Positions 37,704-57,898 of a DNA stretch of 64,000 nucleotides are shown one piece after another; within the stretch, counting starts at the first letter, position 1; each line of letters begins with the position of its first letter. The notes beneath the pieces are model-generated. The model made no database searches, was not told the origin of the DNA, and was given only the letters and a program-made list of their open reading frames with translations. The stretch spans positions 3,363,001 through 3,427,000 of the forward strand of contig NZ_AP018694.1 of NCBI RefSeq assembly GCF_009689585.1, in the 5' to 3' direction. The position numbers and the translations under genes were made by a program. Origin of the DNA: Aquipluma nitroreducens (GTDB lineage: Bacteria > Bacteroidota > Bacteroidia > Bacteroidales > Prolixibacteraceae).

Positions 37704-39116
37704 TTAAAACTTCCAAAATCCGGAATACGAAACTCCGAGTATTACAGCAAGGTTGTTTCCATACATCGAACCCCGATCTCCTGAAATTCCAAGGCTTATC
37801 TGTGTATCCTTTACAAATTTAGCAGCAGTTGAAGTCTCCAGTTGCCAAGAAAATTGTTTCACGAAACTTGTATAAATGGGCGCAGTATGCCCGTAATTTT
37901 CAGAATAAGCCAATGTTAATCTATAATTGACGGATTTAACCGTTCCTTTTCCGGAGAAATAATAAAGCCTGACGGTGTTATTGACTATCGAAGTTGATCC
38001 ATCTTTGTTGTATTTCGGAGAAGTAAGCCATGGATTTCCAATCGTCATTCCTTTGTAGCTCCATCCGTTGGGAATTAAGCCGTTCGTATAATAACCGTCC
38101 TGACCACCATAAATAACACCATCCAGATCGTGCCAAGGACCACTTTGATCGGTAGTACTCAAATATTCAAATACAAAATGATTTAAAGGCTGAAATCTGG
38201 GTAGCTTGACCGACATTCCCCACAATCCATCTTCAATCGTGGGAGTGTTGGTAATGAACTTTTGTACTGGAGCATCTTCTGCAATGCTTTGCCAATAAAA
38301 GGAGACAATTGCAGCTTTAAATTTCAGATCTAGGCCCAGATTTTGGGAGATAATGTGATTTCCCAGGGCATTCTCCTGATCGGACCAGTTGGCCGTTGAG
38401 TTACCACTTTTTCCCAAGAAAATGCGGAGATAATTATCCAGCGTGGCAGGCATTGATCCATAAACATCTGATCGGCCACCCCATTGGGCTACATGTTGCA
38501 CACCATACGATAAGTTAACCGGAAACGAACCGCCCATTCGGATATAGGCGTATTTATGGTGAAGCAATAGCCCTTTAAGGTCTTTTTGATTTTCAAACCA
38601 CCCATGCGAAAGTCCTCCTTTGATCTCTAGATATCCTTTGGTGTAAGGTACTTCGACATATCCATCCGATTGGATTGACAATTTGGGCATGGGTCTGCTG
38701 TTTTGCGACCACAACATTCCTCCGCTCGAAAGTTCTTCGTCCTGGTTGCCAAACACCTCACGTTTAGAACCTGCATTAACATTCAGAAAGTATATTTTGC
38801 CCTGAGCATAGATTTCTCCGGGGAAAAAACGGCTTCTTGCGGTTGAAATATTTCCGTCTAGTTCTACTCCAAATTCGTAATCAAAGGTCTTTTGCTTTTT
38901 TACTTCTTTATGCAAAGTTCCCCATACCGTTAATGAGTTGGGTGAAATGTCGAATCGATCGTATTGGTTTGTGGTTGATAAAAAAGGAGCGTAAGATCCT
39001 GTTCCTCCGGTAAATCTGGAATTAATTGAATAAGCGATTGAATCGGAGCGACTTTGAGCCTGTAGTATTACCGAAACCAATATAAGGATCAGCGTTTGAT
39101 AATATTTGATTTTCAT
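37704..39116 (-). CDS. Capsule assembly Wzi-like outer-membrane beta-barrel
   Basis: A signal peptide (ends ILQAQ) is followed by a protein made of alternating strands with many aromatic residues. It ends in SYSGFWKF, a terminal aromatic typical of an outer-membrane barrel insertion signal. The segments INSRFTGGTGSYAPFLSTTNQYDR, GHTAPIYTSFVKQ and SGDRGSMYGNNLAV fit the Caps_assemb_Wzi family. Wzi anchors capsule to the cell surface in enterobacteria, and the Bacteroidota members are assumed to act likewise. It is the first gene of the surface-polysaccharide side of the window, though separated from the main locus by a repeat cluster and a Kelch gene. 470 residues. Confidence 0.8.
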   Translation of the reverse strand: MKIKYYQTLILILVSVILQAQSRSDSIAYSINSRFTGGTGSYAPFLSTTNQYDRFDISPNSLTVWGTLHKEVKKQKTFDYEFGVELDGNISTARSRFFPGEIYAQGKIYFLNVNAGSKREVFGNQDEELSSGGMLWSQNSRPMPKLSIQSDGYVEVPYTKGYLEIKGGLSHGWFENQKDLKGLLLHHKYAYIRMGGSFPVNLSYGVQHVAQWGGRSDVYGSMPATLDNYLRIFLGKSGNSTANWSDQENALGNHIISQNLGLDLKFKAAIVSFYWQSIAEDAPVQKFITNTPTIEDGLWGMSVKLPRFQPLNHFVFEYLSTTDQSGPWHDLDGVIYGGQDGYYTNGLIPNGWSYKGMTIGNPWLTSPKYNKDGSTSIVNNTVRLYYFSGKGTVKSVNYRLTLAYSENYGHTAPIYTSFVKQFSWQLETSTAAKFVKDTQISLGISGDRGSMYGNNLAVILGVSYSGFWKF

Positions 39117-39153: not shown

Positions 39154-39326
39154 CGTCATTGCGAACGGAGTGAAGCAATCTGTATTTCGATAAGATTGCC
39201 GCGTTCTCTTTCATCGTCCTCGCAATGACGTTCTATTTTGCGCCGTGATTGCGAATGAAGTGTAGCGAAATGAAGCAATCTGCTGTTCAATATCAGATTG
39301 CTTCGTCGTACCTCCTCGCAATGACG
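39154..39326. repeat. Two full copies of the CGTCATTGCGA palindromic repeat
   Basis: Copy 1 (39154-39230) and copy 2 (39244-39326) each start with CGT(C/G)ATTGCGAA and a GAAGCAATCTG inner motif. Each then returns as AGATTGC and CTCGCAATGACG, so the whole unit folds into one hairpin of 77-83 bases. The remaining part of the 39117-39371 gap has no gene. Confidence 0.85.
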
Positions 39327-39342
39327 CTTTGATAATGGTTCC

Positions 39343-39715
39343 CGTCATTGCGAACGTAGTGAAGCAATCCGTTATTCGATGGTATCAGTTAGGTCTTCCC
39401 AGTTGGAGTTAAATCCGTTTATCAAATCCAGTTTTTTCTGACGCGAACCTGCTTTGATTTGTTTTTCCCGTGCAATGGCTTCTTCGATGTGGATAAATCC
39501 TTCATAATAAACAAGCTTTGTTACGTTGTATCGCGAAGTGAACGATTTTTGGTACAGTCCATTTCTGCGTTCATATAGACGGTTCATCAGATTACTGGTT
39601 ACTCCGGTATAAAGTACTGTATGTTTCTTGTTGGTTAAGATATATATGTAGCCTCCTCGTTCCATGGTGCATTGTTGTTTGAGATTGCTTCGGTCTTACC
39701 TCCCTCGCAATGGCG
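39343..39715. mobile_element. Palindromic repeat split by a GIY-YIG gene (candidate autonomous element)
   Basis: The left arm (39343-39371, CGTCATTGCGAACG ... GAAGCAATCCG) and the right arm (39681-39715, GAGATTGCTTCGG ... CTCGCAATGGCG) are the two halves of the same repeat found intact next door. They enclose one gene for a GIY-YIG nuclease. The gene's last codons and stop lie in the centre of the left arm. This suggests a small mobile unit whose gene-less copies are the solo repeats. No target duplication could be identified. Confidence 0.55.
39372..39665 (-). CDS. GIY-YIG nuclease, URI/UPF0213-like
   Basis: The 97-residue protein is one GIY-YIG domain: YIYILTNKK (strand 1, in place of GIY), LYTGVT (in place of YIG), the catalytic-type arginine in NLMNRLYERR, and the C-terminal helix EEAIAREKQIKAGSRQKKLDLI typical of the stand-alone URI subfamily. 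Such nucleases cut or nick DNA; the natural role of the short bacterial forms is not known. It lies inside a palindromic repeat, with its stop codon and last codons contributed by the left arm. ATG start with no clear ribosome-binding site. Confidence 0.9.
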   Translation of the reverse strand: MERGGYIYILTNKKHTVLYTGVTSNLMNRLYERRNGLYQKSFTSRYNVTKLVYYEGFIHIEEAIAREKQIKAGSRQKKLDLINGFNSNWEDLTDTIE

Positions 39716-39990
39716 CGTTTATGATGGTTGCCGTCATTGTGAATGGAGCGCAGCGGAATGTGGCAATCCTTTTTTGTACTAGTCAATGCGAACGTGGTTT
39801 CATCATTGCGAACGCATTGTAGCAATCTGTTCAATTTTTCATCATCATGAGTTTAGCGAAGTAATCTGTTATTTGATAAGATTGCCACGCTCCATTTCAT
39901 TTCGCTCGCAATGACGTTCCGAAATATATTTCCGATATTGCGAACCTAGTGAAGCAATCTATCGAATAATATTGCGGTGCTAACTTATAT
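39716..39990. repeat. Cluster of partial and degraded CGTCATTGCGA repeats
   Basis: Further arms of the same family: 39732-39769 (left arm), 39782-39796 (fragment), 39801-39834 (left arm), 39851-39916 (near-complete, ending CTCGCAATGACG) and 39933-39976 (left arm with a degenerate return). No gene is supported in this stretch. Small frames read through the arms by chance. Confidence 0.75.
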
Positions 39991-40959
39991 TTAGGGTTGG
40001 AACATCCAAACATCCGATTCCCGTTCAACATCATCTTCACCTCCCACAACATAGCCTTTCCCGTTGAGTGTAAACGCAACAACGTTTTGCCGGGCACCAC
40101 CAGGAAAATCGCCGCACTTTGTCCATTCATTGGTTGCAGGATCATAACTAACGACATCCGAGAGTAATCTGCCCCCATTCAATGATCCGTTCCAATAGCG
40201 TCCCAGCATAATGTAGCCTAGTCCGTTAATTGATAATCCTTTCGATAGAACACGTGCCTTCGGTAAATCGGCTACTCTGTTCCAACTGTCAGTTTCGGTA
40301 GAGTAACAGTAAAAGTCTTTATACCGTTCACTGTCAAAGCCTGTACCAACATAAAAATTCTTTCCGATTGCAAATCCTGCCGTTCCCGAACGCTTTACGG
40401 GGCAATCTTTCAGACGTGTCCATTCGTTGGTCTTTGGATTGTATTTGTATGTGTCCGGTTTATATTGTGTACTTGTATAGCCTTCGGTTGTATAAATACA
40501 ATCATCAATTACTGCATAGAATAAATCGTTCGAGGCTTCCCCGGGGAATGATGCTACTTGTTTCCAGGTATCGTTTTTTAAATCATATTCCCAAAGATCT
40601 TTGTAGATGGGACCTGTATAGGGTGCAATAGCACCCAGACCAACATAAGCTTTATCCCCGATTACTGCTCCGATTGCTTTTACTCTTGCCGCGCCAGGGA
40701 AATCTGCTTTGCGTGTCCATTGGTCAGTTTGACTGTCATATTCCCAAAGGTCATTCAGAAAATCAACTTTCCAACCCGATCGCCCCAAGCAGACGTATGC
40801 TTTGTCCTGCCAGGTAAAAGAGGTAGCCGAAGCACGCGCCTCTCCCGGAAAGTCATTTAGCTGCGTCCAATCGCTGATGGGCGTTGATTCAAATTTTTGA
40901 CAGGCACCTGAAATAAGAATACACAAAAGCAGGCACCAATGCCTTATTTTAAAATCCAT
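39991..40959 (-). CDS. Kelch-repeat beta-propeller lipoprotein
   Basis: A lipobox-type signal peptide (LLCILISGACQK, Cys about 20) is followed by about six Kelch blades. Each blade has the pattern N-D-L-W-E-Y-D ... T-D-x-W-T ... F-P-G-x-A-R ... K-A-Y-V-G-x-G, for example WEYDSQTDQWTRKADFPGAAR and VSYDPATNEWTKCGDFPGGAR. The propeller is expected on the outer membrane or in the periplasm and to bind a partner or glycan. Function unknown. 322 residues; it sits between the repeat cluster and the polysaccharide genes. Confidence 0.85.
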   Translation of the reverse strand: MDFKIRHWCLLLCILISGACQKFESTPISDWTQLNDFPGEARASATSFTWQDKAYVCLGRSGWKVDFLNDLWEYDSQTDQWTRKADFPGAARVKAIGAVIGDKAYVGLGAIAPYTGPIYKDLWEYDLKNDTWKQVASFPGEASNDLFYAVIDDCIYTTEGYTSTQYKPDTYKYNPKTNEWTRLKDCPVKRSGTAGFAIGKNFYVGTGFDSERYKDFYCYSTETDSWNRVADLPKARVLSKGLSINGLGYIMLGRYWNGSLNGGRLLSDVVSYDPATNEWTKCGDFPGGARQNVVAFTLNGKGYVVGGEDDVERESDVWMFQP

Positions 40960-57826: not shown

Positions 57827-57898
57827 GAGATTGCTTCCTCTTACCTCGTCGCAATGACGCTCTGATTATCGTCATTGCGAACGTAGTGAAGCAATCTG
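57827..57898. repeat. CGTCATTGCGA repeat arms, reversed order, between wbpE and wbpD
   Basis: A right arm (57827-57859, GAGATTGCTTCC ... GTCGCAATGACG) is followed ten bases later by a left arm (57870-57898, CGTCATTGCGAACG ... GAAGCAATCTG). This is the end of one unit meeting the start of another, as if two units lay side by side with their outer halves lost. Confidence 0.8.

Follow-up and report, generated by a model that had tools for sequence, protein, structure and literature searches.

A small GIY-YIG nuclease gene between inverted palindromic repeats in Aquipluma nitroreducens: a probable REPtron-like unit

Why should a gene for a 97-residue nuclease sit between the two arms of an inverted palindromic repeat, and could its product be the enzyme that spreads that repeat? 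The question is raised by a 64,000-nucleotide (nt) stretch of Aquipluma nitroreducens DNA (‘the window’: positions 3363001-3427000 of the 5.7-Mb genome, contig NZ_AP018694.1), in which a GIY-YIG nuclease gene is enclosed by, and surrounded with, repetitive extragenic palindromes (REPs). Our answer is that the gene probably encodes a stand-alone GIY-YIG nuclease of the Ssn kind; that the hairpins on either side of it are probably the cognate repeats which this nuclease recognises; and that the unit, which occurs in a REP-gene-REP form and in gene-less forms, would be copied by way of nicking. Ssn (site-specific single-strand nucleases), reportedly the subject of Chenal et al. 2025 (Nat Commun), is said to be a family of GIY-YIG nucleases, first found in Neisseria, that cut single-strand DNA at specific repeats. 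The features at the core of the locus are as follows (window positions; G, C and L numbers used below are our own handles for genomes, contigs and loci):

39372..39665, minus strand: GIY-YIG nuclease gene, 97 amino acids (aa), with Arg33 in place of a near-invariant His (open reading frame, Pfam, AlphaFold2, Foldseek, homolog alignment)
39343..39369, plus strand: downstream REP arm CGTCATTGCGAACGTAGTGAAGCAATC, with a CGTC tag, an ATTGC..GCAAT stem and then C (strict REP detector, distance 2)
39683..39715, minus strand: upstream REP arm, inverted, GATTGCTTCGG..CTCGCAATGGCG, with one tag base changed (sequence reading)
39154..39230, no strand: gene-less REP pair forming a hairpin, with a 13-nt spacer (fold z -5.3, dimer survey)
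39244..39326, no strand: gene-less REP pair forming a hairpin, one half with a changed tag (fold z -5.05)

The open reading frame list of the window places the gene, and its product has a single Pfam match, to the GIY-YIG family (PF01541; E=1.5e-13, 51.3 bits against a cut-off of 22.6, residues 5-78); no NCBIfam model matched it at E 0.001. The AlphaFold2 model is a compact GIY-YIG domain (mean predicted local distance difference test score 87.5), for which Foldseek returned one match below E 0.001, the UPF0213 structure 1zg2 (1.8e-4), with Slx1 and the UvrC N-domain behind it as weaker matches. Searched as a profile against the Protein Data Bank, the same protein led to 1zg2 and 1ywl. By length, Pfam match, model and structural matches, then, this is a small stand-alone GIY-YIG domain. 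A preliminary description of the locus had placed the gene between inverted palindromic arms, and in this it was right. It erred in putting the last codons and the stop inside the left arm: the stop codon ends 2 nt short of the arm at 39343-39369. The two arms are two unlike halves (in gene orientation, GAGG type upstream and TTCG type downstream), and the two neighbouring gene-less hairpins are built of these same halves. On the gene strand the upstream arm has a degenerate tag, CGCCATTGCGAGG..GAAGCAATC, a change that hides it from the strict detector introduced below. In the window REP type a perfect outer stem of 5 bp encloses a long loop and is followed by TG or CG. The two hairpins that had been described are indeed single hairpins, and as single-strand DNA they fold far better than their shuffles (0/200 as good in either case); the earlier inventory was nevertheless too short, in that degenerate REP halves continue to about 39960.

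Are such arms a property of this one gene, or of its relatives? When the flanks of 30 related loci were read, close relatives proved to share arms, and other subfamilies had other palindromes or none. Because the arms vary by subfamily in this way, the detector that we adopted fixes only GTCAT at one end, ATC at the other, and a paired 5-bp stem (‘strict REP’). It replaced a 6-bp-stem version that was too strict, missed the window type, and matched at 27/139 genes. The 5-bp detector still misses both the window gene's degenerate upstream arm and the repeats of Sinorhizobium meliloti (tag CTC), and REP counts are therefore likely to be too low. It was applied to 139 Bacteroidota loci (47 matches listed plus 92 from the top of a longer list, three rows beside or equal to chosen loci having been passed over), and located a strict REP within 200 nt of 97 genes, with a REP on both sides of 63. 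Another 91 loci came from other collections (the best 80 of 584 loci plus 11 of 31 plasmid records) and mostly from other phyla, namely Pseudomonadota, Nitrospirota, Chloroflexota, Cyanobacteria, Elusimicrobia, Patescibacteria and others as judged from record titles and taxonomy, at least two being again Bacteroidota; here 76 genes had a strict REP nearby, and 46 had one on both sides. The relatives are, for the most part, flanked by matching arms, so that the first of the two results which the preliminary description held to be fatal is not observed.

These palindromes are not the product of chance. The 139 loci contain 437 strict matches, as opposed to 7 after shuffling, and the reversed REP pattern matches 0 or 1 times per genome. 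REP density within 0-50 nt of the gene is 4.6 per kb upstream and 7.8 per kb downstream, compared with 0.2-0.5 per kb at more than 600 nt; the corresponding values for the 91 loci are 9.0 and 10.9 per kb beside the gene and 0.05-0.35 per kb far off. A flank complementarity score of at least 16 is reached by 64/139 genes, versus 6/139 mispaired and 5/260 shifted controls. The folding results complete this case against chance. Control genes behave differently. Y1_Tnp loci from the same family sample of genomes have a REP in 0/23 cases, 7 of the 30 loci having been set aside as clipped. Large GIY-YIG genes (14 loci) yielded only 2 chance-like REP matches, and the four other GIY-YIG matches of the window's own genome, one of them a 610-aa frame as long as UvrC, are without such a REP around them. 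We also looked at 14 small GIY-YIG loci from 12 genomes that were picked for having REPs without a typed matching gene: three had any match, and two of those three already belong to the main set. Since these small control loci mostly lack a REP, the link belongs to this GIY-YIG subfamily, and small GIY-YIG genes without REPs exist.

The same data bear on the most conservative account of the locus, namely that the palindromes are ordinary intergenic repeats (terminators, or RNA stabilisers) that happen to neighbour a small gene. Their position between genes and their strength as hairpins agree with it (three of the four stretches folded; the fourth, 39896-39963, was not beyond its shuffles, with z -1.4 and 16/200 as good). 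However, REP density more than 600 nt out is at least 15-fold below that beside the gene, the Y1 and large GIY-YIG control genes lack REPs, and the window stretch has no Rfam match at the gathering score, the known RNA family that came up being sR20 alone, at 18.1 bits where 44 are needed. We consider this account very improbable.

If the nuclease recognises its flanking repeat, then repeat and protein should vary together. We examined this for the 97 of 139 genes that have a strict REP, splitting REP types by their five-letter stem. The nearest protein from another genome carries the same REP stem in 51/97 cases (1000 shuffles: mean 14.4, maximum 31); on the tree of these 97 proteins the REP type changes 38 times (200 shuffles: mean 61.7, minimum 57), and host genus, of which there are 55, changes 69 times. 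Inside one genome, the REP types of gene pairs differ in 22/26. On these sequence comparisons REP type tracks the protein more than the host genome, and cognate recognition of the REP by the nuclease is strongly indicated. In G257:C1, at about 1481-1492 kb, a span of 10 kb contains three GIY-YIG genes that are related to one another; two of them have REPs of the CGTCATGACGAGC type and the third has REPs of the CGTCATGGCGAG type.

The gene is associated not only with the REPs that touch it but also with their number elsewhere. With the loci themselves subtracted, the window REP type has a median of 10 copies elsewhere in genomes with the matching gene (n=9, window genome included) against 1 in the others (n=51, p=3e-4), and a second REP type a median of 19 (n=7) against 0 (n=53, p=1e-3). 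Among 296 genomes, at least five copies of the window type are held by 45/127 that have a relative of the gene and by 9/169 that do not (odds ratio 9.8), counts that ignore shared ancestry. The repeat is hence not equally frequent with and without the gene; equal frequency was the other outcome that the preliminary description had named as fatal to its proposal. In the window's own genome the type recurs in five places, among them a cluster at 3.209 Mb and the pair at 57829-57896.

The anatomy of the unit is repeated across relatives. Of the 65 genes that have a strict REP within 60 nt both upstream and downstream, 43 have the tags pointing outward, with a median leader of 17 nt and a median trailer, from stop to REP, of 3 nt. 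A typical unit consists of CGTCATTCCCGCGAAAGCGGGAATCCAG, 12-15 nt, the gene, 3 nt, and the same REP inverted. The gene-less dimers of the examined loci (n=158) comprise 68 tags-outward, 41 tags-inward and 49 same-direction pairs; 109/158 are thus inverted, and tags-outward is the commonest arrangement, as it is for gene-bearing units. In three of eight same-genome gene pairs with like DNA (G148, G210, G112), the likeness stops inside the downstream REP. We compared gene-less spacers by eye as possible relics of the 3' end of the gene, and this was not established. Three further observations concern such units. On pSymB of S. meliloti (L285, about 1304-1417 and 1810-1920) a GIY-YIG gene has CTCATCCCTGTG..CACAGGGAT pairs on both sides, with inner palindromes, and there are many similar places in Sinorhizobium and Rhizobium plasmids. 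Four small GIY-YIG copies, apparently of another subfamily, stand in tandem at G245:C1 2899250-2900416, where the one locus examined (L328) is without a REP. Two contigs of G008 (C4 and C12; L105 and L106) share identical 2171-bp stretches that contain a GIY-YIG gene with internal stops.

At orthologous sites the unit is present in some genomes and absent from others. In Azospirillum lipoferum 4B an insert of REP pair, gene and REP pair separates sufB from sufC (L283, about 1373-1882). In 11 other Azospirillum records both flanks match and the insert is absent (spans of 1406-1512 nt versus 2001); four of these 11 were looked at individually. Across 49-kb stretches of three insert-free records the detector found no such REP, the single match being one of 18 nt, chance-like, in an A. 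oryzae stretch, at a place where A. lipoferum has one too. Because the relatives without the gene are also without the surrounding REPs, the Azospirillum pattern reads as a gain, with REPs arriving together with the gene. Among the matches listed for Rhizobium and Sinorhizobium plasmids, there was no clean empty/filled pair of near-identical strains.

For the window's own locus, the comparison is anchored on the two neighbouring genes, which are listed here with the remaining features of the window:

37704..39116, minus strand: left neighbour gene, 470 aa; anchor of the orthologous locus, outside the element (open reading frame)
39733..39768, plus strand: degenerate REP-like half, GTCATTGTGAATGG..GGCAATC (sequence reading)
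39803..39828, plus strand: degenerate REP half (89% to reference copy)
39880..39916, minus strand: REP half, GATTGCCACG..CGCAATGACG (repeat search)
39935..39960, plus strand: degenerate REP half (repeat search)
39991..40959, minus strand: right neighbour gene, 322 aa; anchor of the orthologous locus, outside the element (open reading frame)
57829..57896, no strand: gene-less REP pair far from the gene, arranged the opposite way with its tags inside (single-strand DNA fold z -7.3)

Gene and REPs are together at this locus in three genomes (the window's own, G368, and G058, whose contig ends before the right neighbour); G357 has one gene-less REP pair there, and in G370 and G360 the locus is empty. 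G362, the seventh genome in which the left neighbour occurs, was left out, its contig being too short to judge. In G370 the neighbours are 93 and 96% identical to those of the window, and about 10 nt separate them, versus 874 in the window. The empty sites that the preliminary description had proposed to look for were found, in G370, G360 and Azospirillum; no target duplication could be read, nor could the exact insertion edge at the compared loci, because intergenic DNA is too diverged between species. Two side observations on the repeats themselves belong here. Beside the cluster of gene-less REP pairs at about 3.2088 Mb (L025, 1755-2267) there are short tandem repeats that encode a run of SCNEYF-like motifs, and in several genomes (e.g. 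G042, G053, G003) the REP loop contains a nested mini-palindrome, ATCCGTCAGTTGACGGA or ATCCCGAG..CTCGGGA, between the stem halves.

Is the gene maintained as a working enzyme? We aligned 213 homologs, kept from 230 after proteins with internal stops or odd lengths were dropped. Y8, Y19, G21 and R29 are invariant, E67 is conserved in 212/213, and the window copy has Y8, Y19, R29, E67 and N86. The ratio of nonsynonymous to synonymous substitution rates (dN/dS) is 0.088 for G058 versus G368, the least diverged of 28 pairs, and 0.03-0.14 in four further pairs with finite dS (23/28 pairs are saturated at synonymous sites); these values indicate that the gene family is under purifying selection. Such selection is also what would be expected from the closest rival to our reading, one that is compatible with a selfish element: a host function of the Ssn type, in which the nuclease and its genome-wide repeats would, for example, restrict how far single-strand DNA is taken up or recombined, and the nuclease would not make the repeats mobile. 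Work on Ssn in Neisseria is said to tie the enzyme to natural transformation, and the relative of the window protein in N. gonorrhoeae (L282), which shares 49% identity with it over 86 aa, has CGTCATTCCC..GGGAATC repeats around it and on its flanks. We provisionally take these repeats to be dRS3 and this nuclease to be Ssn. On the other side stand three patterns that are more those of a selfish element than of a host system: the unit is present or absent at orthologous sites, gene/REP pairs of different type share a single genome (the 22/26 pairs above), and the 49-kb Azospirillum stretches have such REPs only where the gene is. We regard a purely host-serving role as unlikely, if less so than any other alternative considered here.

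We favour a mobile unit, and propose that it works as follows. REP-gene-REP would be the gene-bearing form, and REP-spacer-REP pairs the gene-less forms, carried in trans. When a repeat becomes single-stranded, at a replication fork or during DNA uptake or repair, each REP would fold into a small hairpin; the nuclease would read the GTCAT..ATC frame and nick one strand near that hairpin, a step modelled on the cleavage reported for Ssn; and repair of the break would then leave a copy of the REP pair, the gene included or not, within or beside other sites. The preliminary description had proposed a minimal mobile element with non-autonomous, gene-less derivatives. Gene-less pairs do exist, in the window and in other genomes, and a single locus occurs with the gene, with a pair alone, and empty; that the nuclease drives the movement is what we infer.

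Several observations weigh against this proposal, besides the shared ancestry that the copy counts ignore. Cleavage and transposition are both inferred steps, with no target duplication to read, and gene-less pairs could equally arise by ordinary deletion or recombination. No strict REP lies within 200 nt of 42/139 and 15/91 genes, and the nine REP-rich genomes without a relative include G095, with 24 window-type copies, and G061, with 424 copies of GTCATTGCGA..GCAATC and a GIY-YIG domain only in 609-aa and 460-aa frames, with no small gene. In the family sample the window type also abounds without a typed gene in G023 (23), G007 (20) and G053 (13), and the second type in G008 (17), G050 (17) and G029 (12). 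G061 and the genes without a REP are what one would expect if CGTC-type REPs spread by other means and the small GIY-YIG gene were a passenger that merely inserts into or beside them. For such a passenger one would expect neither a REP type that tracks the protein tree across genomes nor an absence of REPs around the locus in relatives without the gene, and the Y1 transposases of the same genomes show no REP link; we judge the passenger account improbable. Loss of the enzyme gene may explain the REP-rich genomes that lack it, by analogy with the RAYT/REP systems (REP-associated tyrosine transposases and their REPs), in which, according to PMC3733652, REPtrons can vanish from genomes that retain REPs. 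In genomes of mixed REP type the nearest relative elsewhere is of the same type for only 12/35 genes, and the REP-type rule is therefore far from strict at our coarse five-letter typing. In the other five of the eight same-genome pairs, the likeness ends in the gene or elsewhere, or runs on. At the genus locus, gene identity (76-78%) is close to that of the neighbours (68-79%), so that an old insertion, later lost, explains it better than a fresh one; as the unit is present in more distant genomes, loss is also the simpler reading for G370.

A final point on the same side concerns residue 33, which is His in 212/213 homologs and Arg (codon CGC) in the window protein alone; the active site of the window copy is to that extent not intact. 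This position has a catalytic role in GIY-YIG enzymes, and R29+4 corresponds to UvrC Y43 and I-TevI H31; the structure-match listing names UvrC Y43F among the mutants studied. Arg33 lowers the claim of an active window copy more than it lowers the claim of kinship. Bearing in mind that the substitution is unique to this copy and that the family is under purifying selection, the window copy may be inactive, and may have been inactivated recently. The element in the window genome looks old and decaying, because its REPs are degenerate, its gene copy has the His replaced, and the site is empty in the closest relative found.

How far does the mobile-unit reading extend? We advance a wider proposal, which in our estimate stands evenly balanced between right and wrong: small GIY-YIG (Ssn-type) nucleases would supply the mobilising enzyme that the CGTC REP super-family as a whole has seemed to lack, and so a second, HUH-independent class of REPtron, in which an enzyme of about 95 residues nicks single-strand hairpins, host repair copies REP pairs with or without the gene, and REP and enzyme specificities co-diversify, with several pairs per genome. 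The present counts tie repeats of the CGTC kind, in many variants and several phyla, to one subfamily of tiny GIY-YIG nucleases, in which repeat and enzyme vary in step. How CGTC-type REPs arose and spread thereby becomes directly testable, and dozens of natural enzyme/target pairs are at hand for reading how a 95-residue nuclease picks its sequence.

It remains to set the unit beside known systems. The window repeat resembles the CGTC-tagged REPs, of which it is probably a Bacteroidota branch or a near relation; according to Di Nocera et al. 2013 (PMC3733652), these include dRS3, RPE-4 and RPE-6 repeats and apparently have no dedicated transposase. It shares with the REPs of that account a CGTC or TGTC tag followed by a stem starting AT, and a predominance of inverted dimers; a CCA tail is present at many of our proteobacterial loci. 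It differs in flanking a GIY-YIG gene, and in the form of the window type, whose perfect outer stem is 5 bp long, whose loop is longer, and which has TG or CG after the stem where those REPs have CCA, so that the stem of 8-9 bp, loop of 4-5 nt and CCA-like tail described there fit many proteobacterial REPs and not the window type.

The analogy with RAYT/REP (REPtrons, REPINs), drawn at the outset by the preliminary description, holds in anatomy and in subfamily specificity: the enzyme gene lies between inverted REPs, each subfamily has its REP type, and there are gene-less pairs. The enzyme, however, is a GIY-YIG protein (PF01541), not a Y1/HUH transposase (PF01797), with no known strand-transfer chemistry, and the tag is GTC/CGTC (CGTC or TGTC) where that of RAYT/REP is GTAG. 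GIY-YIG homing endonucleases of the I-TevI type share the catalytic fold with the window protein and match its model weakly (1ln0, E 2.9); at about 97 aa, however, the latter has no room for a large DNA-binding extension, and its presumed targets are intergenic repeats in many copies, where a homing endonuclease has a single intron-less allele. Among the papers listed in a literature search of incomplete coverage, none joined GIY-YIG genes to REPs, so that one may exist; PMC9465073, the one paper to mention both, does so in a gene table and in a reference title.

The window gene probably adds a member to an enzyme kind already described, and is housed in a REPtron-like unit. What is probably new here is the REPtron-like reading, together with the connection of GIY-YIG genes with CGTC REPs and the sites that lack the unit; the enzyme kind itself appears to be known already, as Ssn. 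With Ssn the window gene shares a small stand-alone GIY-YIG protein and a multi-copy cognate repeat, which we find both at the gene and around it. It differs in coming from Bacteroidota, in its repeat (CGTCATTGCGA..GCAATC), in Arg33, and in that cleavage here is a prediction; conversely, our comparisons document that the entire unit may be there or missing at orthologous sites. The comparison would widen the picture of Ssn, from a transformation factor of Neisseria to a probable selfish element.
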